Positions 2,253 through 64,000 of a stretch of 64,000 nucleotides of DNA are shown in pieces. Origin of the DNA: Harmothoe impar (Eukaryota > Annelida > Polychaeta > Phyllodocida > Polynoidae). Every line of letters starts with the position of its first letter. The stretch's first letter is position 1. Both the position numbers and the translations under genes were made by a program. The notes under the pieces are model-generated. The model was not told the DNA's origin, did no database searches, and saw only the letters and a program-made list of their open reading frames with translations. The stretch lies in assembly GCA_947462335.1 (NCBI GenBank), contig OX381721.1, forward strand, positions 11,669,910 through 11,733,909. The letters run 5' to 3'.

Positions 2253-4719
2253 GTGCAAACTTCATCCCCGGAGGGGACATTTGCCATAGAGGAGGCAGAT
2301 ACCCCAACAAGAGGTGCCAATGTTCTACAGGGGGCAGCCGCACCGTCAAGAGTGGAGGAAACTCCGGGGCCACGAGGGCCCAAGTTAATATGTCGATCAT
2401 TAGAAGAGATGAACATGTCAATGTTTTACATTGGCGGGTCCCGTGCAGCGGCTCCTACACCTGGGATGTACGGCAATCCGGAGGAAGGTCGCTTTGATGA
2501 CTACAGGGAGGCAAGAGTGCAGGAACGACTGCAACTTGCCCAAAGAGAGTTGATGACCGTACAGACCAAGTCCTTAGAGTGGTCTGATAAATTGATTTCT
2601 CTGGAGGGTGCGATATGTCACCGAAACTCCAAGATAAAGGAGAAAGACGCAAGGTTATCAACTTTGCTGGAAGAGAATGAGAAACTGACGCAGTCCTTGA
2701 GCGTGGTCAGGTCCGAATTCAGTAATGCGAACACGGACCTGAACCAGATTTGTGAAGCCAGAGATAGGATGGCAAATAAAGCTGCGGGTCTGCAAACGGA
2801 ACTTATCAGGGATACGGACACCCTGAAGGAAGCCCGCCACAGTCTAGCCGCTGAATGGGAGGTGCTGAGGACGAAGAAAATGCTATGTTAGAAGCTCGCC
2901 AGAGCTTGCAGGACAGTAGGGCGGACTGTAGTAGTACCTCCTTCGCCTCTGCGGATAAGGGAAGCCCGACAGCTGCCCATTATATGAGTTTCACGGACAC
3001 TCCAAATCTACCAGGTGGACGGGGAGTAACGATAGAAATCCTTTGACCGACTGGGTAACTACTCAGCAAGAGAAATTGCAGAAGCAAGAAAAGTTATTGG
3101 AGGAGAAACGTCTGAATAAGGCGGCGATCCAAGAAGCAGCAGCCAAGAAGTATCATACTCCAATAAGCTTGGCCGAATGGCAAACCTGTCAAACAGAAAA
3201 GATGTTCCAGGAGCAAAAAGCTCTGGACGACGAGAGATGGGAGTTGTTCCGACAGCAGGAGGCTGTCATAGAGCAACAAAAGAAACATATGAACGAAAAT
3301 GCTGTGATGGCTGAGGAGTTGGCCGAACAGGAAGCCGCAGTACTCAAAGCCCGAGCAGAAGGATTGAGAGCTGCCGGAGAGGCTGCAAAAGCTAAACTTG
3401 CGCAGGCCCAACAAGAACAAGAGGCGGAGAGACAAGCGAAAGAGCTTGAAAAAGAGAAGGCGGAGCATCAGTTGTTACTGGCTCTGTCACAGCAGTGTCA
3501 GTATATGACAGATGTGGAGAAAAATTGGTGGTTCAATCAGGGGATTGATCCAACCAAAGAAGTGGTAGCGTATGGCACGTACCAGGCGTATCTGGAGCAG
3601 CTGAAAGCTGCGATTACAACAGTGGGGTCTGCAGAACCAACAAGTCCGAAAAAGACTCCGAGGAGGTCAATCCTGAGTTCAGCAATGCAGGAGCTGTACG
3701 ACACGAACCCTGCTATAGCTGGGATAGGATTGCACAATGTGGGAGTAGAACAGGACGCTTCGTCGGCCATTTCTAAATGCCTATCGATCACCTCTAAAAT
3801 TAGGGGATCGACCAATGCAGCCAGGCGGATAGCTAGTGGGCCTAGCCCATACTGGCAGAGGAATTCGTGGGAAGAATGGCTGGGAGCCACTGTGGAAGAT
3901 ATCAACCTGAGTGGTTGGGATCAGAATGAAGCTATTCCTTACATCTGTAAGGGATTGCGACTGGGAGACGGCCTCATAGCGGTCGAACAGTGGAAGGAAG
4001 ATTGCGGTCCGCAAGGTACCTTCAAGCAGTTGGTGGAAACATGCACCGTGCTGTTTGGAGGTTCCGCCCGGACAGATCCAATGGTCGCTTTTAAGAAGCA
4101 AGTGCAAGGCAAGAACGAAGCTCTGAGAGTATTCAGTCTTGCATTAATGCGACTCCTGAAGAAAGTACACCCTTCTTCAGGAATCCATGATGCCTTATTC
4201 TTTAAGGAACTTTTCTCTCAATTCGTCGCCGGATTGAAAGATCCTGACGTACAACAGACAGTGTATGACACGTGGAGGGCGGATACGTCTTTGGATGACC
4301 TTTTTAAGGCCATAGAGATACAAGCCCTCAAAAAGTCCCTGCTGGGAGACCAGGTACCAACCCGCTCATCTGCCATTCAGGAATGTTCTCCGGATCACTC
4401 TGAAGGGGAAAGCAGCGAGGAGGAGGCAACAGCTTCCGCGGCCCAGTTTAAGAGGAATGGTAAATCCTCTAAACCACCGTGGAAGAATAGGACACAGGAG
4501 GGGGTAGGTGATCCACTTTCGAAGAAGGAGTCCTCGGAGAAAAAGACTCCTGTGATGGATGCCGCATTCTTTACGGCATTGTTTGAGAAAATGACGACTT
4601 CCATTCAGGGGGCTACCCAGCCTAACCGGAGGAAGATCAACCGGAAGACCGCCAAGTGCCATTTTGCTGCGGAGTGCATGGCTCCGAGCCCGAAAGTTCC
4701 CAGTAAGGAGGGAAACTAG
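2253..4719 (+). pseudogene. gag region of the gypsy element, frame-broken
   Basis: Three successive frames (2253-2891, 2855-3046, 3043-4719) carry a long Glu/Lys/Gln-rich coiled coil followed by a capsid-like segment (WEEWLGATVEDINLSGW near 3870-3920). The listed frame starts are not real initiators. Two shifts separate the coiled-coil part from the capsid part. Near the C-terminus only the second half of a CCHC zinc knuckle survives (CHFAAEC, about 4657-4677); the first CxxC is absent, so nucleic-acid binding would be impaired. The 3043 frame ends six bases before the next frame, which fits gag-pol expression by frameshifting in the parent element. Confidence 0.7.
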
Positions 4720-4724
4720 GTGGG

Positions 4725-6077
4725 GTGGTCCGAGCTGGCGAGCGGACGACCCCTGGTAATGAAGTACGCCAACATACCAGAGAGGTAGAGCCTAGTGGAG
4801 TTCTTAGGACAGAAAGAATACCAGGGGTGGCTTCGAGCTTGGGGAGTTCGGATGCTGGTCTGGTGGACATTTCAGTCCAACAGTTGCCCGGCAATGAGGC
4901 AGGGAGGCCCATTACGGAAGGAGACGAGAAAGTAATGGCTGTCACAGACACCGTTTGGGTAGGGAGTACCCAGCTTTCCCCTGATCATCCATGTTTCGAC
5001 CATTTGAAGAAACATTCGTTAGATTTGGCTGCTCCGAAGGACTTTAAACGCTTCACTGTAAACCCGTCTTCGCTGGGAGGGAGACGGTGGTATGTGTCTG
5101 TTACTGTGGCCGGTAGGGCAGGCGAGTTCTTAGTAGATACCGGAGCTAGCCACTCCTTTATCTCCTCAAACTTTTATGCTCTTATGCCAAGTAGTCGCGA
5201 TGACTTCAAAATGAAGGTAAGCGCCTGCTCGGCCGATGGGTCAAGTATGCAGATGTATGGGCGCGCGTTCATACCACTCCGAATTGGAGGGAAGGAGTAT
5301 GTGGCTTCTCCCACAATTGCAGATATTGCAGACAACGGTATACTGGGGTTGGACTTTGCGGCGTTATATGACACGGTCCTGAATCCTATTACAGGGGTAC
5401 TCCGGATAGAGCACCCGTACCTGACGGTAGAGCAGTGTGTGCTTCGGCAAGTTTCAACAGTGGCAACGGTGGTCCAAACTGTGAAAATTCCTCCCGGACA
5501 GACTCGTGACGTGCTGGTCCGAAGCAAGGGGCTTAGGAGAGAGGAAGAAGCAGTTGTGGAACTGGATATGGCCATGTTGGGGAGTATCGGTCTAGTGGGC
5601 ATGGACACCCTGGTGGGTGATGGTGCTTGGACTGTGGTGCCGGTTTCTTACCCCGGGTTAGAAGCTAAGTATCTGAAAAAGGATACGGTGTTGGGGGAGG
5701 TGTTCTCCAGCAAGGCAGTGATGCCTGCTGGTCATGTGAGCATGAAAGGGGACCCTTCGCCTACCAATCTGAGTGAGGGACTGGAGAAAATGATCTCCGA
5801 AACGGATCTTACGGACCCGGGGGATCTCAGTTCCTTGAGAAGGCTGGTGGAGAGGTATGAGGATGCGTGGCAAGTGGAGGGGGAGCCTTTGGGCCGAACT
5901 GACAAGGTGCTACATTCCATCAATACCGGGGATGCACAGCCATTTAAAATGCCTTACCAACGCTTGCCGTTGAGTAAGAAGAGAGTTGTTGAAGAACAAG
6001 TGAAAACCATGCTGGAACAGAAGGTGATCATGCCTAGCACTAGCCCCTGGTCTAGTCCGGTTCAGATGTTTTTTTAA
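4725..6077 (+). pseudogene. Aspartic protease and N-terminal RT of the gypsy pol
   Basis: A retropepsin-like protease is marked by FLVDTGASHSF, with the DTGAS catalytic loop at about 5135-5149. Roughly 230 residues later the frame enters the RT N-terminus (PYQRLPLSKKRVVEEQVK and then SPWSSPVQ near 6050). The frame terminates at a run of T residues at about 6070, where the conserved RT sequence continues in another frame. This looks like a slippage-type insertion or deletion. The frame differs from gag, as expected for a pol frame. Confidence 0.75.
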
Positions 6078-7373
6078 GAAGGATGGGTCTATTCGGTTTT
6101 GTATCGACTATAGACGTCTGAACGGAGTAACCAAGAAAAATGCCTATCCTCTCCCCGTATTGATGAGACTCTGGACTCGTCGGGTGGGAACCAATGGTTC
6201 TGCACCCTGGATTTGCAGTCCAGATATTGGCAAATCGGAATGAAGGAGGAGGATAAGGAGAAGACGGCTTTTACGAGCCATATTGGACTGTATCAGTTCG
6301 AACTGATGCCTTTTGGGTTGTGCAACGCCCCGGCTACTTTTGAGGCCATGATGGAAACTCTCCTGAGTGATCTATTATGGCGCAAGTGCCTGGTCTACTT
6401 GGATGACATCATTGTTTTCGGCAAAACGTTTGAAGAGTGTGCGTTGAACCTCGGCGAGGTATTGGAGCGAATTCGGTCTAATGCGTTAACCCTGAAGCCG
6501 AAGAAATGTGAACTTTTTAGGAAGTCCATGGTCTATCTGGGCCGAATCATCTCCACCATTGGTGTGGAGGCTGATCCGGCCAAATCGGAAACTGTGGAGA
6601 CTTGGGAAGTTCCAAAAGGACCGAAGGACGTGAGGTCTTTCTTGGGGTTCTGTTTCTATTATAGGGACTTCATCCCCGGATTCTCGGGAGTGTCTCAACC
6701 TTTACAGAAGTTGAGTCATTGGACTCCAGGGTGGAAAAAAGAACCTTTTCCCTGGGGGATGGAACAGAGCAATGCTTTCAAAGAGATTAAGGCATTGTTC
6801 CGGGACACCCCCTTGCTGAGATACCCTACGGAGAAGGGGCATTTTATCCTTGACACTGATGCGAGCAATGAGAGCATCGGGGCCGCATTGTCCCAAATCC
6901 AGGGTGGAGTAGAGGTCCCGCTGGTGTTCGCTAGTAACAGTATGAACAAGGCGCAGAGAAACTATTGCACTACCAAGCGTGAGTTGCTGGCGGTGGTAGT
7001 TTATACAAAGAAGTTCAGACACTTCTTGTACGGTGGTAATTTCACATTGCGGACGGATCATTCAGCTTTGAGGTGGCTCCTTAATTTTAAGGACACGGAG
7101 GGGATGATTGGTCGGTGGTTAAATCACCTAAGCAAGTTCGGGTTGGAGAACTCTCATATCCAACACCGAGCAGGCACGAAGCATGTAAATGCTGACTGTC
7201 TAAGTAGACGTCCGGTTCGCCGTTGTGTGCGTCCGGACTGTGGGGATTGTGGTGCTCACAATGCTGTGGTAGCGAGTGTGCGTTTGCCTTACGATGGGTT
7301 GTTGCAGAACCTGTTGGATTGGTCCACCGACACTATAAGGACGTACCAGATGGCCGACCCTACCATAGCATGA
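6078..7373 (+). pseudogene. Reverse transcriptase and RNase H of the gypsy pol
   Basis: The RT core is readable from about 6080 with a second frame change near 6150. From 6213 a single frame gives YQFELMPFGLCNAPATFE, the YLDDIIVF active site (about 6396-6420) and the gypsy thumb. RNase H follows (ILDTDASNESIGAALSQ near 6846-6900, KRELLAVV near 6976, LRTDHSALRWLL near 7047-7085). The frame stops at 7373 just before the integrase zinc region. Catalytic residues look intact, so the decay is recent in this part, but the two upstream shifts disable the polyprotein. Confidence 0.85.
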
Positions 7374-9747: not shown

Positions 9748-9865
9748 TGATTAACATTGGATCTACGTCAGAACACATTATTTCTAACCTCTAAATATGA
9801 TTGGCTAGAAGTTGGTACGTGAGAATGTGATGTTGGTACAAGGTTGGCCCACCATTCATTTGCAA

Positions 9866-10810
9866 ACACACACTGTGTGGCAATGTCCCCAGTTTGCATA
9901 CACACGCCATACCTAAGACCAAGTCCTCTATTTGCAGACACACACTGTGTGGCAATGTCTCCAGTTTGCATACACACGCCATTCCTAAGACCAAGTCCTC
10001 TATTTGCAGACACACACTGTGTGGCAATGTCCCCAGTTTGCAAACACACGCCATACCTAAGACCAAGTCCTCTATTTGCAGACACACACTGTGTGGCAAT
10101 GTCCCCAGTTTGCAAACACACGCCATACCTAAGACCAAGTCCTCTATTTGCAGACACACACTGTGTGGCAATGTCCCCAGTTTGCATACACACGCCATAC
10201 CTAAGACCAAGTCCTCTCTTTGCAGACACACACTGTGTGGCAATGTCCCCAGTTTGCAAGCACACGCCATACCTAAGACCAAGTCCTCTATTTGCAGACA
10301 CACACTGTGTGGCAATGTCCCCAGTTTGCATACACACGCCATTCCTAAGACCAAGTCCTCTCTTTGCAGACACACACTGTGTGGCAATGTCCCCAGTTTG
10401 CATACACACGCCATACCTAAGACCAAGTCCTCTCTTTGCAGACACACACTGTGTGGCAATGTCCCCAGTTTGCAAACACACGCCATACCTAAGACCAAGT
10501 CCTCTATTTGCAGACACACACTGTGTGGCAATGTCCCCAGTTTGCATACACACGCCATTCCTAAGACCAAGTCCTCTCTTTGCAGACACACACTGTGTGG
10601 CAATGTCCCCAGTTTGCAAGCACACGCCATACCTAAGACCAAGTCCTCTCTTTGCAGACACACACTTTGTGGCAATGTCCCCAGTTTGCAAACACACGCC
10701 ATACCTAAGACCAAGTCCTCTCTTTGCAGACACACACTGTGTGGCAATGTCCCCAGTTTGCATACAGCCACTGTGCAATTTCAGACCAAGTCCTCATTTT
10801 GCATACACAC
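9866..10810. repeat. 72-bp minisatellite, about 13 copies
   Basis: The unit (ACACACTGTGTGGCAATGTC, then CCCAGTTTGCATACACACGC, then CATACCTAAGACCAAGTCCT, then CTATTTGCAG) repeats with very high identity. It is itself a diverged dimer of about 36 bp, since TTTGCANACACAC recurs twice per unit. Because 72 is divisible by three and the unit lacks stops in several frames, long frames of about 300 residues appear on both strands. These follow from periodicity and are not annotated as genes. Confidence 0.95.
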
Positions 10811-14477: not shown

Positions 14478-15430
14478 CTTACACCTGCAGTGCCCCCTGG
14501 TCAGTCCCAGCCCCTGACTCTATAATACTACTCTTACACCTGTACCCGAGCACTGCCCCCTGGTCAGTCCCAGCCCCTGACTCTATAATACTACTTACAC
14601 CTGCACCCCAGCACTGCCCCCTGGTCAGTAACAGCCCCTGACTCTATATACTACTTACACCTGCACCCCAGCAGTGCCCCCTGGTCAGTAACAGCCCCTG
14701 ACTCTATATACTACTTACACCTGCACCCCAGCAGTGCCCCCTGGTCAGTACCAGCCCCTGACTCTATTATACTACTTACACCTGCACCCCAGCACTGCCC
14801 CCTGGTCAGTAACAGCCCCTGACTCTATTATACTACTTACACCTGCACCCCAGCACTGCCCCCTGGTCAGTACCAGCCCCTGACTCTATTATACTACTTA
14901 CACCTGCACCCCAGCACTGCCCCCTGGTCAGTACCAGCCCCTGACTCTATTATACTACTTACACCTGCACCCCAGCACTGCCCCCTGGTCAGTCCCAGCC
15001 CCTGACTCTATAATACTACTCTTACACCTGTACCCAAGCACTGCCCCCTGGTCAGTCCCAGCCCCTGACTCTATATACTACATACACCTGCACCCCAGCA
15101 GTGCCCCCTGGTCAGTAACAGCCCCTGACTCTATATACTACTTACACCTGCACCCCAGCACTGCCCCCTGGTCAGTACCAGCCCCTGACTCTATATACTA
15201 CTTACACCTGCACCACAGCACTGCCCCCTGGTCAGTAACAGCCCCTGACCAGCTGCTGACTCTATTATACTACTTACACCTGCACCCCAGCACTGCCCCC
15301 TGGTCAGTACCAGCCCCTGACTCTATTATACTACTTACACCTGCACCCCAGCACTGCCCCCTGGTCAGTACAAACCCCTGACTCTATATACTACTTACAC
15401 CTGCACCCAGCAGTGCCCCCTGGTCAGTAC
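14478..15430. repeat. About 61-bp minisatellite, 16 copies
   Basis: The core GCCCCCTGGTCAGTACCAGC with TTACACCTGCACCCCAGCA occurs 16 times at spacings of 60 to 63 bp. One copy (about 15240-15262) carries a 12-bp internal duplication. Two copies share an alternative form (TACTCTTACACCTGTACCC), which indicates exchange between distant units. No frame is maintained. Confidence 0.95.
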
Positions 15431-45659: not shown

Positions 45660-46205
45660 AATACCATCCTGGCAGCCATCTTGAAAATTACCTGGATCAA
45701 AAATCGGAGCCTACAAATGGATTCTACACCCCAGAAAACCCTATTATACATGTGTCATACAAGGAAATCGGACAATCTTGAGTATTTGGTGGCCATCTTG
45801 GCAGCCATCTTGGAAATTTCTCGGATTGAAAATCTGAGCCTGAAAATGGATTCTACATCCTAGAAACCCCTACTATCCATGCATCACACAAGGAAATCAG
45901 ACAATCTTGAGTTTTTGGTGGCCATCTTGGCAGCCATCTGGGAAATTTCTCGGATTGAAAATCTGAGCCTGAAAATGGATTCTATATCCCAGAAAACCCT
46001 ACTATCCATGTATCACACATGGAAATCAGACAACCTTGAGTTTTTGGTGGCCATCTTGGCAGCCATCTTGGAAATTTCCCGGATTGAAATTGTGAGCCTG
46101 AAAATTGATTCTACATCCCAGAAACCCCTACTATCCATGTATCACACAAGGAAATCAGACAATCTTGAGTTTTTGGTGGCCATCTTGGCAGCCATCTTGG
46201 AAAGG
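45660..46205. repeat. 129-bp tandem repeat, about 4.3 copies, in-frame
   Basis: The copies start at 45671, 45800, 45929, 46058 and 46187, exactly 129 bp apart (43 codons). Each unit contains GGTGGCCATCTTGGCAGCCA, a doubled CCATCTTGG word that is a YY1-type motif on the minus strand. The plus frame is open across most copies as a 43-residue repeat (ILAAILEISRIENLSLKMDS), with one TAG at about 45861. No splice or start evidence; treated as a repeat. Confidence 0.9.
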
Positions 46206-55023: not shown

Positions 55024-56263
55024 CCCGGACCAGAATGCAGTAGAAAAACAGCCCTAAAACAGTGTGCAAACAGTGTAGTGCTGCAGTATTGCTTCAGTTC
55101 CAAATCAGTCTGATAATCAGTGTCAAATCAGCATCTACTGCTAGTCTACTGGCAAAAGCTACAGAACAGTGCAGCAGTAGCCCAGCTCTAAATCAGTAGT
55201 ATATCAGCTAGTAGGCAGCATTGGAACAGCATGTCCGAAATATGTAAATGAGGTGGCAGCTGTTGAACAGCATCTACTGATTTGCTGCTGGAATACAGTG
55301 CCTATTCAGTAGTAGTAGCACCCCATAAAGGATCAGCATCGAATCAGTACTGCTGGATAACCACTGTCCTGGCAGCAGTTGAAAAGTACACTACTGACTA
55401 CGTACTGCTGTAGCAGTATGCCATCAGTAGTACGGATGTTAAGGTGAGTGATTAGTAGATTTGTAAATAAAAGATGTTATTCAAGAAAAGGTCAAAATAG
55501 TGAATCCAGTAAAATTACTATGCAACACATTAGGCCCTCCCCTTCCATCCACTGTTGTACACTGTTGACATCCACAAATATAGTATGTACCAAGGAGATA
55601 CAGTATACTTCTACCCAGACAGTCTCACTGCTTTCTCCATCTTACTCTAATAGAACATAGAGATAGATTTCAAATTACTGATTTACTTACCAAGGTGAAC
55701 TCTAAAATTCAGTTTCAAGTAGCCCACTGTAGTCACGGGGTCTTCAATGCATTGTATGCCAATTCTTGTAACATTAAATGGGATCCTTTAGTGTGTATTT
55801 CTCTAAAATATGCTCCCTGTGTGCTTCTTTGTTTGGTCCATGGCCAGTTCCCTCCTTCTCTAACTGTCAGAATTTTATAACCCAAATAAAATGAGGTCAC
55901 AAGCACTAGGGAACTCTGGGAATTCAGCATTGAATCAGTTGACTGCTGCAACCACGCTATGTCTCAGGAGCATTGAATCAGTTGACTCACTATATTCATG
56001 AAGTGACAAAGTGACAGCAGTTGACATTCAGTTGACTGCTGCCTCTATACTGCTGCACGGAGTGTGTCAGCAGCAGTACTTGAATATATCTTATCAAGTT
56101 TCAGTTGAGGGTTAGCGGACTGCTGAATCTAGACTGTATAAAGCAGTGGAGGATCAGCAGGTTTGGGAGTGGTGTATCAGTGCATACTGAGATCTGCAGT
56201 TGTTATTCAGCATATTTTCAGTATCCACTGATTTAGGAAGTATATGCTGCCTTCTGGTCCGGG
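55024..56263. mobile_element. 1.24-kb TIR element with CAGT-rich subterminal arms
   Basis: The ends CCCGGACCAGAATGCAG and, in reverse, CCCGGACCAGAAGGCAG match with one mismatch. About 400 bp inside the left end and 310 bp inside the right end are packed with CAGT, CAGCAG, ACTGCTG and CAGTTGACTG words in both orientations, while the 480-bp core (about 55445-55925) lacks them. No transposase frame. Subterminal motif arrays of this kind can be transposase-binding sites. Target duplication not clear. Confidence 0.6.
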
Positions 56264-57034
56264 AAGGGTATTACTATCAAATAGTACATAGCTATAGACA
56301 TACTATGATATTCAATAATAGAGATCCGCTCCCTCCGCAGATCGGTTACATGGTCTTTCATCATCTAATCATATATCATATTAGGGTGTCAGCGCAAAAC
56401 CATCTTCACCCTGCATACTTCCAGACTGTGAAACCTCACTTAGCAACAAAGCACTTTTGACTTTTCCAAATCCAGATAGAATCTGCTTTACAGACATGTA
56501 GGAACATAACATTTGTTGCACACTACAGCAGACTAGATGGTATAAGGATGATGGCACTAGGGAGCAGGCCAGTCATCATGTAGAGCTCGGAATAGCGCTG
56601 CCTCCTAATCAACCCCCTCTGCCTGCAGGTCAACACGGTAACATCATTTAGGTGAATGGGGAGAGACAGACCACCACAACCTGAACCTCTGTAGGAACAG
56701 AGTAAAGCAGTTGTTTGTCTGCAGGTATACAGTGTCTCTGCAAATCTCCAAGCTAAATTCCATGGCTGCTGTACAACTTTTTCTTTCTTTTTTTGAACTT
56801 TTCCCATTGGACCTTTTCTGTGATTATATCCCTGATGTAACTTGTAGGTGTCCCATCGTAAAATCAGTTCATTCTGGTACAATCCATTCAATACTAATGT
56901 GACAATTTGTTTGATTATGATCCGGGTATTTGTCTCCATTAGAGCCCAGGATGAGCCCATAATGCATGAATCATAGTGAAATGACACTTCCCTACCTGCT
57001 CTGTTCTTTAGTACTGCTTTCCTTAGATTCTATC
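56264..57034. other. Noncoding stretch, insertion target of the LINE
   Basis: A minus-strand frame at 56523-56987 (154 codons) has no family features and no intact splice context. The LINE poly(A) tail begins at 57035. Confidence 0.4.
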
Positions 57035-57052
57035 TTTTTTTTTTTAATGTGT

Positions 57053-57058
57053 TTTATT
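57053..57058 (-). terminator. Polyadenylation signal of the LINE
   Basis: AATAAA on the minus strand, about 8 bases before the A tail that ends the element. A short GATGA pentamer repeat (57263-57283) lies earlier in the 3' UTR. Confidence 0.75.
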
Positions 57059-57349
57059 GGGTAAAAGATAACAAATACAAGAGTAGATGCATCATCCTAG
57101 CATAGGCGCATTGCCTTACTTCCGCTAGGTCCCCTATCATTCAAGGCTTATCACAGATATTCAATACATATGGTTATGGCGTATCATTCAATATATATAT
57201 CTCATTACATGATCAGACTCAGGGTATTCCGTTATCACAATGTGTATATCACAGTCCGTAATGATGAGATGAGATGAGATGAGTGGGGGGGTGGTTGGTG
57301 TACAAATAAATAGGGGGCATTCTTCAAGACATACATAAAATTTATACGA

Positions 57350-60199
57350 TCACATAAAACAGTGGGTATAGTCTTTTTTAACCTGAATTTTAAATTCAGC
57401 CAGGCTGTCGATGTATGTATAAAAAGGTTTTAACATATTCCAACGCGTAATGGCTCTATAAAAGCAGCTTCTTAATACGATAGGCTTTAGAGACCTGGGT
57501 ACTTTTAACCTTATGCCTTGGTTGTGTCTAGTGGGTAGGTTTCTGTTGTCCACCAGCTTACGCTGGTGTTTAAGGGTAAAAGCATAGAAGAGGAGGTGTA
57601 TATCCCTCCTAATATTAAGATACATACATTCGCTATTATTATGTAATTGAATAGTATTATACAGAGGATTTGCCTCTAGCTTAACTCTATATACCGTCCT
57701 GAGTGCTTTATTCTGTAAGAACTGCAGCTCATTAGATTCTCCAATATTGCCTCTGTCCCATTTGTAATCCACATAATCAAAGGAAGGAAGGGTCATTGTC
57801 TTGTACATAGTTAGGGCAGTGGGCGTGTCAACATAAACTCTTGCTCTGGCGGATTGTATGATTTTGTTCCTGATGTTATTTACAGTATTAGTTCTATGCT
57901 GAATAAATTTCAACTCAGGATCTAAGGTGAGCCCTAAGTATGTGAAATTATATACTCTTTCTAATACAGCACCATTCAGATAAAAGACAGGATATTTTCT
58001 CTGAAAATTGTTAAAATACATCCATTTTGTTTTTTTCACATTAATTGTCAGACTATTGTCTATGCACCACTTTGAAACAAGGTTAATAGCAGTTTGCATT
58101 TCATCAGGACAGCACAGTGATATAACCGCGTCGTCTGCGTAGAGAGTTATATTAAAATTATATACTTTTGGTAAAGAATTTATATAAATAGAGAAAAGCA
58201 CTGGGCCCAATACTGAACCCTGAGGAACACCATACGTGATAGTTTTTTCTGAAGATAGAATATTATTAGCAATTGTTTTCTGAGTTCTAAGGTGGAGGTA
58301 GCTTTTGAACCATTTTAGGGTATTTTCACTGAGTCCGAAAAGGGATAATTTTTTTATTAATTTGGAGTGTGAGACTGTATCAAAAGCCTTTTTATAATCG
58401 AGATATAAAGAGATAGTAGGCCTGTTATTTATTATGTTTTCAATTATATTTTGTAAGTGTTCCTGGATAGCAGTCTGAGTCGAGTGCTTAGCTCTATAAC
58501 CATGTTGTCTCGGGGACAAAAGTTGACTATCATTCATGTACGACTGTAATCTATGACAAACAATCTTTTCTAAAATTTTCCCTGGTAAGGGTAAAAGACT
58601 TATTGGTCTGAGATCACTCACTTCCATTGAGTTAGCTTTTTTAGGAAGGGGGACCACTGTCCCTGCTTTCCATTTCGAGGGAAAAACACTTGTCGATAAA
58701 CATTTGTTATATAAACATAAAATAACTTCAGGTATACACATGAAGGCGTCCTTTAATACATTAGTCTTTATATGTTTAATAGAGGAGGCCTTTTTGGTAT
58801 TAATCTTCCTTATATATTTCATTATATCAATATAAGACAATGGCATAAGCAGGTCTGTACCTTGAATAGGTTCTCCATACGGATTACGTTCATTCCTCTG
58901 CCCCTCACCAGGTGGCAGTTCATTAGCTAAGGTCTCACCGATCGTAGAGAAATATGAATTGATATGATCAGCGCATTCTTCTGTTGGTACAGTTAAGCCT
59001 GTTATGTTATTCCTTAGTTTTATTAGAGTGGAGGTGGTTTTTATAGGTAATAATTTCCTAATGGCTTGCCAGAATTTTGCTGGATCATCCTTTCTATGTA
59101 TTAGTAGCATGTCGATTTTTTCTTTTCTACTCATGAAAATCATACTTTCCACTCGATTTTTGTGAAAATCTGCAATACGCCAATCATCTAAATCCATGCT
59201 TCGTCTTGCAATATTATATAATCTATCCCTTTCCCTCATTGCTTCTATAATAGGAGGAGTCATCCATTCAGGAGTGAATTCTGGAACAACTATTTTTCTC
59301 ACCGGACACATTTCATCTAGAATCAGTCTTATAATATCTATTAGTCGCTCCCACATGAGATTCACATTATTAGCAGTGACAACTGGGGTCCAATCAATAG
59401 CATTGAGAGAGTTTTTAAAATTAAGAAAGTCATATTTCCTATAGGATCTTGCCATGACAATTTTCTTTTTAATTTTCGTGCGTTGACATTTAAGTACCAT
59501 ATAGACAGGAACATGATCTGAAATTCTGAACCCAATTGTGCCAGATTTAGCGACATTATGCACATTTGTATAGAAATGATCTAACAGAGTCCCCGACTGA
59601 GGTCTTGTAATTTCATTTATTAATTGAGTAACATCATTATCTGTACAAAAGCTATCTACCTTAGAGGTTTTTATATCATCTTGAGAGAAGAGATCAACAT
59701 TAAAATCGCCCATAATTATAATTTTTCTATTTTTAGTTACAGGTTTCTTTAACTCTTCAAGCTTCTTATAAATAGCATTTTTATCATTATCTGGGTCAGG
59801 TGGCCGATAACACACATATATTTTATATTTGATAACACCTACTATCACATCAACACATAAAATTTCATATTCCTTGTGGATACATGATGAGTCTATATCG
59901 ACCGTAGCATTGTAGTGGTCCTTTAAATATAACATAACGCCTCCAGCACCTTTGTCTCTGTGTGGAGTTCTGTCTAGCCTTATGTATTGATACCCCGGAA
60001 TATACAGATCTAAGTCATTATGCGTAGGATTTAGCCAGGTCTCCACTATACCAATGATATCTGCACAGGAGATTATTTTGAAAGCGTCACATCTTTTCTT
60101 ATACACAGATCTAGCATTAATGCATACAAATCTTAAGCCTTTCGTGGCTGTTAGCATATCTAGATCATCCATTATGAGAATTGTAAAAAAATACACCAT
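57350..60199 (-). CDS. LINE ORF2: AP endonuclease and reverse transcriptase
   Basis: A 949-residue protein nicks the target and copies the element RNA in place (target-primed reverse transcription). The endonuclease spans about residues 21-235: CINARS at 26-31, catalytic Glu in VETWLNP (residue 53), GGVMLYLK 86-93, YRPP 131-134, MGDFNVDL 163-170 and SDHVPV 227-232. The RT spans about 480-760: LRPISLLPLPGKILEKIV 530-547, LDYKKAFDTVSH 600-611, GVPQGSVLGP 657-666 and the YADD active site 687-690. The C-terminal region lacks a clear zinc knuckle or RNase H. The motif set fits the jockey/CR1 group. ATGs at residues 1, 10 and 15 are all possible starts; all keep the whole endonuclease. Confidence 0.95.
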   Translation of the reverse strand: MVYFFTILIMDDLDMLTATKGLRFVCINARSVYKKRCDAFKIISCADIIGIVETWLNPTHNDLDLYIPGYQYIRLDRTPHRDKGAGGVMLYLKDHYNATVDIDSSCIHKEYEILCVDVIVGVIKYKIYVCYRPPDPDNDKNAIYKKLEELKKPVTKNRKIIIMGDFNVDLFSQDDIKTSKVDSFCTDNDVTQLINEITRPQSGTLLDHFYTNVHNVAKSGTIGFRISDHVPVYMVLKCQRTKIKKKIVMARSYRKYDFLNFKNSLNAIDWTPVVTANNVNLMWERLIDIIRLILDEMCPVRKIVVPEFTPEWMTPPIIEAMRERDRLYNIARRSMDLDDWRIADFHKNRVESMIFMSRKEKIDMLLIHRKDDPAKFWQAIRKLLPIKTTSTLIKLRNNITGLTVPTEECADHINSYFSTIGETLANELPPGEGQRNERNPYGEPIQGTDLLMPLSYIDIMKYIRKINTKKASSIKHIKTNVLKDAFMCIPEVILCLYNKCLSTSVFPSKWKAGTVVPLPKKANSMEVSDLRPISLLPLPGKILEKIVCHRLQSYMNDSQLLSPRQHGYRAKHSTQTAIQEHLQNIIENIINNRPTISLYLDYKKAFDTVSHSKLIKKLSLFGLSENTLKWFKSYLHLRTQKTIANNILSSEKTITYGVPQGSVLGPVLFSIYINSLPKVYNFNITLYADDAVISLCCPDEMQTAINLVSKWCIDNSLTINVKKTKWMYFNNFQRKYPVFYLNGAVLERVYNFTYLGLTLDPELKFIQHRTNTVNNIRNKIIQSARARVYVDTPTALTMYKTMTLPSFDYVDYKWDRGNIGESNELQFLQNKALRTVYRVKLEANPLYNTIQLHNNSECMYLNIRRDIHLLFYAFTLKHQRKLVDNRNLPTRHNQGIRLKVPRSLKPIVLRSCFYRAITRWNMLKPFYTYIDSLAEFKIQVKKDYTHCFM

Positions 60200-60811
60200 A
60201 TATTGAATGCATTATAATGATATTGTGAGGTGATACCTAGTATGAGGTGACCGAGTGGGTTGTTAAAATACATTTCTCGTCTGGCTATGGCTGTCTGAGG
60301 CAGCGCGCTCCTGTGGTGTACAGTTATACATACAATAGATTGCATAGACATTCCCTATATGTGGTTCTAATTTCATGATACATTTTAGATGTCGTTCTAG
60401 TTTACAAATCAATCAAAATATATTAAGGGGTTATTCCCTTTACAAACTCATGCATTAATATAATATACATTAAATGACATGACATTTACCGGCATTCTCA
60501 CTGTAAGATAGGTATATATATATACATTTGTATTGAAACAGCTGATTCAACTTGACCCAGTAACCTTGCTTAGGACGGACACTTCATGTAAGACGCTATT
60601 ACCCGGTCGCCCATTCTATAGTATTATGTAAGTAACAACCTGTTGCATAAAGTCAATTGGCTTGAACTCATTTGTACCGTAATGGGACTGTAGGGCATGT
60701 GCACTCACAGCTCAGAGCCTCCCGAGACAATGCTAATAGGTAAGCGAGAAGTTTTCTATAGGAGTACATACATTGTATAAATATATAATTTTATCTACTT
60801 ATTTAATTCAG
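60200..60811 (-). other. 612-bp spacer between the LINE ORFs
   Basis: AT-rich with no long frame. How ORF2 is translated from a bicistronic RNA with such a long gap is unknown; internal initiation or a subgenomic RNA would be needed. Confidence 0.6.
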
Positions 60812-62662
60812 TTATTTTTTTACACTTGTGATCCTTTTGGTGGATCCAATTAGCCCTAGCATGCGGTCTTGCAACCTTACAGAGTCACTGTTCATTTGTG
60901 GTTTCTGGCCCCGTTCTGCCTTGGGCGGTTTCTTTAGCTGTTGGTTGGTGCGTGACGGGGTGATAACAATAGAGGTTTCATCAGTCGCTGTAGGGCTCCG
61001 AATAGTGGCATTTCCGTGTTTTTCCTGCAGGTCTTGCATAGTTATTGGCTTGCCCAACCTCTTCTCTGCCGCTGATGGTGATACAGTGGTCACTGTCATT
61101 TGTATGCCACCTGGTGTAGTTACTACTGTCTTATCAATAATCGGGGGTGTGACCACAGCAGGTGTTGTTGTTGTTGTTGTTGTTGTTGTTGTAGGAGTAG
61201 TCGGGTCGGCAGCTGGTGTTGCAGTGGCAGCTACTGTAGCTACTGTAGCCGTAGTAACTGTGGTAGTGGCAGTTACTGTCACTGTATCGTCCCTTACAAG
61301 GGGGGGTGCTGCTGCTGCTGGAGGTTGTTCTGGGGTGGGCGTGGCACCTTCAGTCGTGGCGGGAGGAGCTGCTGGTGGGGTGTTGCCTTCAGGTGGTGGT
61401 TGTTCTGCGGGAGTAGGAGGCTTGGGAACTAAGTCAGGGTATTTAGCTCTTAATTGTCGTCGTACCTCCATTAGTACATGCCCCCCCCTGTTTTTTCCTT
61501 TGAAGTTATTCAACTGGACAGCCTTGGATTTCAGGGGGGCCCCGGCCCCCCAGTAGGGGCATGTCGTGGCCTCAACTAGGTCACGTGACCCGCTCGACAA
61601 GAGGGTGATGAGCAGCTCGTTGTGTGACTCGTATTTTATAAGATTTAATTCAGTTAAGTGTGCCTCGTCAATCTGCTTCCAGCCTTCACTCACCATCGTT
61701 TTGGCAATGTTTTTGGCCGCTAATGCAGTGAAGCAGTCTTTTATCCTTTGGGCCTTTTCAGGGTTCTTGCAATAGACTGCCTTTCTATGTGCCAGAGCCT
61801 GTTCGACACAGTGAAATGTGTATCCATCAACCTCAATATCACACTGGTAGAAGTTGCTCAGAGGAGCCAGCTCGGAGTGAAAAGCAACCATTTTATCTGT
61901 GATGTATGTCCTGGCGTTGGCAAGGTGAATCTCTGGGGGCAGGTCCCCCAGGGCCTGGTGCGGGTAGAATTTGCCACCATATATGATTCCTCTACCCCTC
62001 GGTTTGACAGATATGCCAGCCTCGTAGGCCAGCCTTGCTATTGTGCTCACATCAGCCTTCTGTTTACGGATGGCATTATTACTGTCTTCTGATAGATACA
62101 CTGAAGGATGATTTCTCTTGAGCCTGCCCTTAAGGGAGAGGAGTCTGTCTCTCGTGCTTCCTTTGACACAAACCACAATGATAGTTCTTATTTTACTTGT
62201 TGGAGATCCTTGCCTGTAGGCATAGTCAATTTCTCTTTTCAAAAAATCGTCGTCAATTGACGCTAAGAGAGAGCTGGCTACGTCTAGTGTGGATTCATTG
62301 ACTATGAACTCAAGGCCGTCAATGACAAGATTTCGCCTCCTTAGTGCATGGTCATTTAAACAGATCGACTCCCTGTTATCATCAATGGCTGTAGTATTTA
62401 CTCTGAGTTGCCTCTCACTCTTTGCCAGCCTATTTTTTAGGGACTTTACCTCATTTTGTAGTGCCTCTCTGTCAGTTTGTAGAGTTGAGATATCATCCTG
62501 GGAAAAGACCAGCGAGTCTTTCAGGGCATCTCTTTCAGCTAACAGATAATCCAAAGTGTCACTGAGTCCTTCTGTGTATGAAGAGATATCTCCTGGATTA
62601 TGCCTTGTTATAGGCTTCCGCAGATCAGCTATTGCCTTAACCGCCGTGTCTCGAGTCGCCAT
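60812..62662 (-). CDS. LINE ORF1: coiled coil, RNA-binding region and NADAR-like domain
   Basis: The frame is open from 62755, but the first ATG in good context (CAACATGGCG) is at 62662, giving 616 residues. Numbered from that ATG: heptad-like coiled coil at about 36-89; an L1-ORF1p/Transposase_22-like RRM and C-terminal region at about 110-235 (RRRNLVIDGLEF, IRTIIVVCVKGS, VYLSED); a NADAR/YbiA-like domain at about 258-406; a Pro/Ala/Thr-rich linker at 411-510 with a 10-Thr run encoded by a GTT/AAC-type microsatellite; and a basic tail. NADAR family hallmarks are LSNFY (268-272), a Glu-Gln pair (287-288), Trp328, LLSSGSRDLVEAT (354-366), YWGAG (370-374) and GGHVLMEVR (393-401). The family is associated with ADP-ribose and with removing ADP-ribose from guanine bases. 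In the element ORF1p should coat the RNA; the role of the NADAR part is inference. Confidence 0.88.
   Translation of the reverse strand: MATRDTAVKAIADLRKPITRHNPGDISSYTEGLSDTLDYLLAERDALKDSLVFSQDDISTLQTDREALQNEVKSLKNRLAKSERQLRVNTTAIDDNRESICLNDHALRRRNLVIDGLEFIVNESTLDVASSLLASIDDDFLKREIDYAYRQGSPTSKIRTIIVVCVKGSTRDRLLSLKGRLKRNHPSVYLSEDSNNAIRKQKADVSTIARLAYEAGISVKPRGRGIIYGGKFYPHQALGDLPPEIHLANARTYITDKMVAFHSELAPLSNFYQCDIEVDGYTFHCVEQALAHRKAVYCKNPEKAQRIKDCFTALAAKNIAKTMVSEGWKQIDEAHLTELNLIKYESHNELLITLLSSGSRDLVEATTCPYWGAGAPLKSKAVQLNNFKGKNRGGHVLMEVRRQLRAKYPDLVPKPPTPAEQPPPEGNTPPAAPPATTEGATPTPEQPPAAAAPPLVRDDTVTVTATTTVTTATVATVAATATPAADPTTPTTTTTTTTTTPAVVTPPIIDKTVVTTPGGIQMTVTTVSPSAAEKRLGKPITMQDLQEKHGNATIRSPTATDETSIVITPSRTNQQLKKPPKAERGQKPQMNSDSVRLQDRMLGLIGSTKRITSVKK
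61163..61192. repeat. GTT microsatellite coding poly-Thr in ORF1
   Basis: Ten GTT units on the plus strand, read as ACA-type Thr codons on the minus strand in the ORF1 linker. Length change by threes would leave ORF1 in frame. Confidence 0.9.
61445..61891 (-). other. NADAR/YbiA-like domain inside ORF1
   Basis: Begins MVAFHSELAPLSNFYQCDIE and ends GGHVLMEVRRQL. The order of conserved blocks (LSNF near the N-terminus, Glu-Gln-Ala helix, Lys in LIKY, LL-x-TG/SG-x-x-x-LVEA, WG-x-G, GGN/KNxGGxxLMxVR at the end) is that of the family, as are its length of about 150 residues and frame integrity. It is not a remnant; the putative pocket residues look retained. Confidence 0.82.
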
Positions 62663-62755
62663 GTTGACCAAAGCACAGGTAGCACAGGGGGAACAAAGGC
62701 TGGAGGTGCGGGTCACTGGTGCGTGCAGTCCAAAATAGCTCACCGGCGTACTCAC

Positions 62756-64000
62756 TGAGAAATAAATCTCCTATATTTCCTTTTGTATTAGGAATCCTCC
62801 TTAATTAACCAGATCCAGGGTAAGTAGGACCCTTTATACGACTCTTGTGCAAAATCTGTCGCAATGGGTAGTCTTATTCCTTAGTAGATCTTGAAAAATT
62901 GAGGAGCGCGCTGTGAGGTCCGACTAGTGTGATAGAGACGCCATAGCCAACTATTAGAGTAGAGACAGAGTATTGAGGCCTAACCAATAGCACAAACACG
63001 GTGTATAGGAGAACACACGCCTGACCTAAATGTGGAAGCAGAGTGTTGGGAGACTGATGGTGTAGTGGCATACGTTACAGAAATCGATGAATACACCAAA
63101 AGAGGAGCTGCCTATGGGAAGCTATCCCTAGAGATCCATACTGCAGAGGTAGTAATCACCCCTGCTTGTTGGAGGCAGGAACATGGGCAGGGTGTGGAAC
63201 AGGGTGTGAAGGGTGTGAGTACTACTAATTGTGCTTAGGAAGGAAGGTGTATAGAGTACTGCAGGGGAAAGAGGTAGGGATACTGGGAGGGAGGATGCTT
63301 AGTACTCAAGCATTTATTTATAAGGCTCAAGAAAACATGAAGAAAGATTCATTCTTGCTGTAGTCAAATACGCAGGGGCTCTTATTAGGAGGGAGGCGCT
63401 TAATATAAGGTCCAATACGGTAATCTGATTATAAGATCTACAATGTAATTAGATTATTGGGTTTCTTCTCTGACCAGTAGGAGTTGCTACAAGAGTAATG
63501 TCCATCAACCAGTCTAGTCTCTTGTTACACCAAAAAACCCTCACCCCACACGTACCCTGGTACGTCGTACAGTCCCTCTTTGATGTAGTAGAATCATTAG
63601 TCTCTAATTAGTTCCATACAGCCACGTCCATTCCCCACATACATTACTCTCCGTCTCCTGCCCCAGCCCTGTCCTACCACTGCTGCTATCTCCTATGTCC
63701 TTTATAGAGGTTTTTTAACTCCCAATCCCTTCTCCCTCCTGTCTCATTTGCACGGTGGCTATTTCAGCTTAATTGGCAGAAGCTGTCAATTGGGATTCAA
63801 ACTCACAAGGCCTTGGACACTTCCAAGAGTGAATTTAATTATCAATCTATGAAGTTTATAGAACAGTTTGTTATCTTATAATTAGCTTATTAATTATGAT
63901 TTCCTCGATGTAGTTTAAGAAATGCGGTTAAGATGATAGCTTTCAGAAAAGAATCAAACCATGAAAAGAAGATATATGACATGAATGCGGCAAACTGGTA
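62756..64000. other. LINE 5' leader and right flank, nothing else recognised
   Basis: 62663-62900 is probably 5' leader of the LINE, though no sharp end or duplication was found. From about 62900 to the window edge there is AT-rich sequence with no long frame, tandem repeat or recognised family. Confidence 0.4.

Follow-up and report, generated by a model that had tools for sequence, protein, structure and literature searches.

The window, i.e. the whole stretch of 64,000 nt of Harmothoe impar DNA that was analysed, carries a LINE on its reverse strand at positions 57035 to 62949. The 3′ end of the element was set by a run of eleven A residues (A11, 57045-57035) preceded by an AATAAA signal (57053-57058). 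The 5′ end is approximate: at seven other loci the similarity to the window element extends 286-288 nt beyond the ORF1 start codon in the 5′ direction, and the extent of about 62949 to 57035, including an approximate 5′-UTR at 62663-62949, follows from this. ORF1 occupies positions 60812-62662 of the reverse strand and, exactly as given in the initial annotation, forms a single uninterrupted frame of 616 aa that is open from its ATG. ORF2 (57350-60199, reverse strand, 949 aa) contains an endonuclease and a reverse transcriptase (RT) domain (Pfam Exo_endo_phos, E-value 6.8e-11; RVT_1, 6.7e-40). An intact endonuclease-RT frame had been described as directly following ORF1; both domains are present, but a spacer of 612 nt (60200-60811) without a long frame on the strand of the element intervenes. 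The GC content amounts to 48% in ORF1 and 35% in ORF2. A search for long terminal repeats (LTRs) found none, the biggest direct repeat within 55500-64000 being 35 nt at 71%, and no target-site duplication was found at the window copy, where the longest exact match was 6 nt. An SGNH esterase domain, as in type IV ORF1 proteins, was found neither in ORF1 nor in ORF2 nor in the spacer, and an Rfam scan gave no matches. The element thus combines an endonuclease-RT ORF2, a poly-A tail, dispersed copies and the lack of LTRs, which characterizes it as a LINE. The RT motif of NADAR-bearing LINEs reads GVPQGS[VI]LGP (GVPQGSVLGP in the window) as compared with GxRQGCPLSP in human L1; the L1-type RQGCPLSP is absent, and the RT of the window element is therefore not of the L1 type. 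Motifs of the kind GVPQGS[VI]LGP mark the Jockey, CR1, I and R1 groups, while Tx1 is an L1-like LINE clade.

The central part of ORF1 (aa 265-405; 61448-61870, reverse strand) is a NADAR domain. It matched PF08719 with 77.4 bits (cut-off 35.1; E-value 1.9e-21) as the sole Pfam domain of ORF1 above cut-off, and NCBIfam TIGR02464 also above its cut-off (2.1e-22). The only significant PDB sequence matches of ORF1 were YbiA (2b3w, 5.2e-9) and 8bau (1.3e-4), the latter being the NADAR of Phytophthora nicotianae with bound ADP-ribose. An AlphaFold2 model computed from a 60-row alignment reached a mean pLDDT of 88.9 and retrieved 8bau first (TM 0.79), then 2b3w (TM 0.75), and no other structure below an E-value of 0.001 in Foldseek. 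Hence, the profile comparison and the structure prediction that had been proposed for aa 258-406 both returned a NADAR. With regard to the fold the domain is complete, as described, whereas the pocket lacks an Asp that is nearly invariant elsewhere. Protein database searches with the whole ORF1 and with the bare domain gave no matches.

The other parts of ORF1 are less clearly defined. A coiled coil at about aa 35-95 (62378-62560, reverse strand), already proposed in the initial annotation, is probable in view of weak matches to coiled-coil families below cut-off. The conserved region at aa 101-257 (61892-62362, reverse strand) may bind nucleic acids, judging by its position. An L1-ORF1p-like RNA-binding region had been assigned here, which no profile supported: neither RRM nor Transposase_22 nor L1 ORF1p matched about aa 100-257, be it as a single sequence or as a 16-row profile. 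The strand and helix order in a single-sequence model of aa 84-410 was compatible with an RRM followed by a CTD (type II ORF1) at a pLDDT of only 36. The C-terminal tail (aa 407-616; 60815-61444, reverse strand) is rich in Pro, Thr and Ala and is the least constrained part of ORF1.

The genome assembly holding the window (1.51 Gb) was searched for further copies, all resulting lists being top scorers and not full counts. With PF08719, 3484 first-look candidates were obtained, and the best 150 that were scored all lay above cut-off and were free of internal stops; since the lowest of them (88.4 bits) still exceeds the 77.4 bits of the window domain, this listing is far from complete. With ORF1 as query at least 73 matches were found (71 of 26828 candidates scored), and the near-full-length ones other than that of the window itself were 49-80% identical. 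Downstream of ORF1, the ORF2 endonuclease was present on the same strand at 28 of 30 loci, the remaining two (L050 and L052) being partial tandem repeats that adjoin a third locus, L027. At 22 of the 30 loci, the window copy included, ORF1 remains uninterrupted over at least 590 aa; in all 22 intact copies the Met start lies at the same place, and the distance between ORF1 and ORF2 is 516-753 nt in 21 of them and 1167 nt in the remaining one. Near-identical copies were located on different contigs (up to 99.75% over 3645 nt, with 5′ starts within about 30 nt of each other), so that some family members moved recently. The domain is therefore no peculiarity of a single copy, which would have spoken against its relevance, but recurs in many copies and lineages. 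Loss of NADAR from some family copies was also considered, using as a small sample the first ten copies by rank, among 150 ORF2 matches, that lacked a listed ORF1. Part of the NADAR is retained in four, four match the tail only and two are without any ORF1; aa 1-252 were seen in none of the ten, and an ORF1 lacking just the NADAR thus occurs in none of them. The three loci L027, L050 and L052 (C21, 57.40-57.41 Mb) contain a tandem unit of about 3.1 kb, covering the 5′ part together with the bulk of ORF1, with copies about 99.8-100% identical, upstream of a full-length ORF1 copy.

Selection on ORF1 was assessed by dN/dS in a codon model of 16 non-redundant copies. The values were 0.057 for the NADAR (aa 258-406), 0.028 for aa 101-257, 0.066 for the coiled coil and 0.173 for the tail. 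Fixing omega at 1 (with kappa fixed at 2) lowered the log-likelihood for the NADAR from -3980 to -4664. Pairwise estimates gave a median of 0.055 from the 9 of 231 pairs that were usable; synonymous sites are near saturation, and the conclusion is accordingly carried by the codon-model values. As far as codon sequences report on it, strong purifying selection on the NADAR of the window family is shown. The dN/dS comparison proposed initially hence gave about 0.06, and the pocket residues are kept across copies instead of decaying neutrally.

For the comparison of the pocket, residues were mapped by a phmmer alignment and multiple alignments, with the residue numbers of the chain shifted by two relative to those of the paper, a shift deduced in this analysis. 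In 8bau, ADP-ribose is contacted by E43, K50, R79, W89, R93, E125, D130 and W133 (PMC11543638). The equivalents in the window family are E287 (E43), K294 (K50), K321 (R79), W328 (W89), E364 (E125), C368 (D130) and W371 (W133), which lie within 61550-61804 of the reverse strand and are each invariant in the 22 intact copies; the place of R93 is taken by D or E. A set of 101 rows was then compiled, comprising 31 non-host NADARs of the genome and 70 others (4 stand-alone genes of the genome, 11 from phages or plasmids and 55 database proteins). L033, L043, L045, L051 and L052 were first left out as broken or short; a locus was then removed if its identity to a retained row reached 85%, and a database protein if it reached 75%. 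The database proteins are a biased sample from a word-limited search in which 178 of 7996 candidates were significant and the best 120 were listed. Nine of the 31 rows belong to the window family and ten are called transposon-borne by likeness; ORF2 was seen downstream for 18 (the nine of the window family, L021, L055, L056, L057, L063, L071, L072, L076 and L077), L066 has a distant RT match only, and L061 and L065 are without RT within 4 kb.

The equivalents of E43, K50 and E125 are kept in all 31 non-host rows and all 22 family copies. W89 is present in 30 of the 31, W133 in 26 and the complete set of five residues in 25. E125 and W133 are separated by 7 in each of the 31 rows, a shorter spacing than in any of the 70 others, of which 68 have 8 and the remaining two 9 and 12, respectively. 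The pocket Asp occupies its exact position in 69 of these 70 and in 12 of the 31, where it is otherwise replaced by Cys (12, nine from the window family), His (4), Asn (2) or Ser (1). Furthermore, the window domain retains 16 of the 25 columns that are invariant in 59 bacterial and phage NADARs, fewer than any of these rows, and 59% of the 32 most conserved columns, as against at least 94% in each of the 59. The counterpart of the missing Asp is presumably one of the four critical residues (E, W, D, W) of YbiA, an N-glycosidase of riboflavin intermediates, a set that is broken by the exchange of Asp for Cys in all 22 family copies. In YbiA, four residues were described as critical for N-glycosidase activity (PMC9303266). 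At the E125 place all 31 rows carry Glu and not the Asp of DarT1-linked antitoxins. Mutations of the E. coli C7 NADAR bear on the positions that are kept: K95 proved indispensable, guanine-ADP-ribose was no longer hydrolysed efficiently by D171A and D171N, E88Q was inactive and E88A was affected less in vitro, while changes at all three positions failed to rescue cells (PMC11543638). These residues correspond to the K50, E125 and E43 places, and the milder effect of E88A than of E88Q in vitro means that one of the three catalytic positions is not strictly needed. Due to the invariance of the Glu-Lys-Glu set in the rows examined, an eraser activity is plausible. The catalytic core appears to have been held while its surroundings drifted or were retuned, and an enzyme of shifted specificity would fit these alignments better than a decaying passenger.

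NADAR was found in the ORF1 of at least ten LINE lineages of the genome, whose ORF2s are 24-45% identical. Endonuclease and/or RT likeness was detected downstream in family B (L018, L054), in family D (L056) and in seven of ten further stretches (L079, L080, L082, L083, L084, L086 and L087); of the other three, L078 has a distant RT match only, and L081 and L085 show no RT within 4 kb. Downstream of the NADAR, the L078 stretch has an unusual RT-like frame that contains GVLQGGVLSPKLF and is only distantly similar to other LINEs. The ORF2 and NADAR trees of the ten lineages share the groups {A,B,G}, {D,H} and {F,I} with weak support in the NADAR tree (67/64, 82/92 and 88/86, respectively). An 80-row tree built without the spacing columns and including 34 of the 55 database rows divided the transposon NADARs into two sets, with those of the window family beside YbiA-like rows and with long branches present; a single clade of all transposon NADARs was not rejected (p-AU 0.27). 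Two gains would require the one-residue deletion to have occurred twice. A single old gain followed by descent is the simplest reading of these trees, and the domain was probably acquired once, in the ancestor of the NADAR-LINEs, and then inherited together with ORF2.

Four stand-alone NADARs (L014-L017; C19 at 3.415 Mb, C21 at 30.056-30.084 Mb) of 183-268 aa in a single frame, three of them within 30 kb, have the usual Glu-Trp spacing of 8 and the Asp, group near a Solemya velum protein in the tree and are taken as host genes; L014 has an RT fragment nearby on its strand. Their candidacy as the source of the transposon NADARs was rejected, as a joint clade gave p 0.0042, a result weakened by the fact that the groups were named after the tree had been seen. 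The Solemya velum protein (P0097) was rejected as an ORF1, its NADAR part alone matching.

Eight NADAR-bearing stretches (L055, L057, L078, L081, L082, L083, L084 and L085) carry, 3′ of the NADAR frame, an additional ORF of 217-293 aa; five have GDS or GDD near the start, and the Ser of GDS is missing in several. The best PDB match of its profile was 4c1b ('ORF1-encoded protein'), which we take to be the ZfL2-1 esterase, at a marginal E-value of 0.016. Pfam searches with two of these ORFs and a PDB search with one alone gave no matches. Perhaps the ORF is of the LINE esterase (SGNH) kind, as its profile hints; the window element is without it.

A NADAR in the ORF1 product of a LINE is not without precedent. 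Contrary to the initial annotation, which knew of no characterised retrotransposon ORF1 with this domain, YbiA-family NADARs in the ORF1 of several Crassostrea gigas Tx1 LINEs have been mentioned briefly, in one sentence and a supplementary alignment (Genome Biology 2025, PMC12477816). These oyster elements were assigned to clade Tx1 (PMC12477816); judging by its GVPQGS[VI]LGP motif, the window element may lie outside that clade. The same report describes a NADAR in the Pol protein of an Ectocarpus Gypsy element, likewise captured by a retrotransposon but by one with LTRs, which as a query matched almost exclusively bacterial proteins (PMC12477816). No further report of a transposon NADAR occurred among the matches listed for NADAR, DUF1768 and YbiA, and a word search in the main text of a survey of 448 Jockey-superfamily ORF1s found no ybiA, riboflavin, glycosidase or 2b3w (PMC4120745). 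The presence of NADAR in LINE ORF1s is thus known, while the lineage spread, the selection and the pocket data are apparently new to the literature. Comparable combinations exist with other enzymes. Type IV ORF1 proteins of CR1/L2 LINEs, e.g. ZfL2-1, also include a hydrolase module, which is an SGNH esterase and not a NADAR (PMC3905857; PMC4120745). Insect LINEs took up and kept an enzyme domain of host-parasite conflict in ORF1 or ORF2, in their case a virus-derived RNA helicase proposed to suppress RNA silencing (PMC5563155). Polyproteins of animal RNA viruses, likened here by description, join a NADAR to the replication proteins of a parasite (PMC9503650). The NADARs of DarT1 operons and YbiA share the fold and the E, K and E/D positions with those of the LINEs (PMC11543638, PMC11125620), which differ in having no linked toxin, E and not D at the D171 place, a spacing shorter by one and an often replaced Asp.

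Taken together, the best reading of the comparisons is that NADAR constitutes an old, inherited and probably catalytic ORF1 module, and its maintenance suggests that it helps the element to survive in the host. The LINE NADAR is probably a working N-glycosidic (ADP-)ribosyl hydrolase. All NADARs tested, including YbiA and covering several subtypes, hydrolysed guanine-ADP-ribose in vitro (PMC11125620), and packaging of RNA is a presumed role of LINE ORF1 proteins (PMC3905857); for both reasons nucleic acid is favoured as the substrate. The NADAR would travel in the ORF1-RNA particle, strip ADP-ribose from guanine of the element RNA or cDNA, or of nearby nucleic acid, and so blunt a host modification that would block reverse transcription. 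For this complete mechanism, a particle-borne NADAR that de-ADP-ribosylates guanine and counters a host modification, a probability of roughly 0.4 is estimated. Several points count against it: DarT (PF14487) gave no matches in the host genome, the same search being positive in one of 14 control genomes; the pocket Asp is often lost; R93 is changed; and activity in vitro does not predict rescue of cells, as YbiA and a phage NADAR that were active in vitro failed to rescue cells from DarT1 (PMC11125620). Scabin-like domains (PF22596) also gave no matches in the host genome, but likewise none in the control genomes, and this negative therefore carries no weight. Removal of ADP-ribose from its own RNA or cDNA by the element, as suggested initially, is hence plausible with regard to the retained Glu-Lys-Glu, but the DarT-type writer did not appear. 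A wider scenario is rather doubtful, in which some invertebrate hosts would restrict retrotransposons by guanine ADP-ribosylation and a LINE radiation would undo it by an ORF1 eraser, paired in several lineages with the second, hydrolase-like ORF of the esterase kind. If true, eukaryotic retrotransposons would have a counter-defence comparable to that of phages against DarT.

The same catalytic residues could instead serve an active N-glycosidase acting on a small signal molecule made from NAD, for instance a derivative of ADP-ribose in cyclic or linear form, by which the element would be shielded from a diffusible host signal. Such a role was proposed for phage NADARs, although those of animal RNA viruses were argued to act mainly on macromolecules (PMC9503650), and fusion to an ORF1, a kind of protein presumed to package RNA (PMC3905857), makes it unlikely for the LINEs. 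A similarly low probability is given to a NADAR that acts solely as a binding module, for ADP-ribosylated nucleic acid or protein or for RNA, in particle assembly or localisation: the lost Asp and the changed R93 of the window family and the loss of W133 in five of the 31 rows would suit a domain without catalysis, the retention of Glu-Lys-Glu in every row would not. Still less probable is a function in transcript processing (5′ end, cap or trans-splicing) like that of SNA-3 in nematode SL1 trans-splicing; processing of RNA intermediates was suggested for transposon NADARs (PMC12477816), whereas SNA-3 is reported to be nematode-specific. Finally, the unlike GC contents and the missing target-site duplication might indicate a single captured copy or a host gene that is by chance the neighbour of an unrelated LINE, but dispersed copies with ORF2 at a similar distance and the post hoc rejection of a clade with L014-L017 leave practically no room for this artefact.

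In vitro, NADARs erase the ADP-ribosylation of guanine; an animal substrate of theirs is not named in the passages cited. A NADAR with conserved catalytic residues in many LINE ORF1s suggests that retrotransposons may meet ADP-ribosylation of nucleic acids, or a related signal, in animal cells, and the NADAR-LINE family offers a repeated and partly young system with a short list of residues open to testing. Moreover, some 'NADAR genes' of invertebrates may be transposon ORF1s.

Scans of viral contigs gave no matches apart from two contigs with phage-like frames, which were taken as chance. The window itself contains further repeats. A decayed RT fragment of another LINE on the forward strand (590-1574) shares 29-48% identity with parts of the ORF2 segment aa 605-941, and a Gypsy-like element with gag-, protease- and RT-like frames recognized by eye is located at 2253-7373 of the same strand. 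Tandem arrays occur at 9858-10766 (unit of 72 bp), 14487-15430 (61 bp) and 45664-46203 (129 bp), and several frames are open in the first of them.
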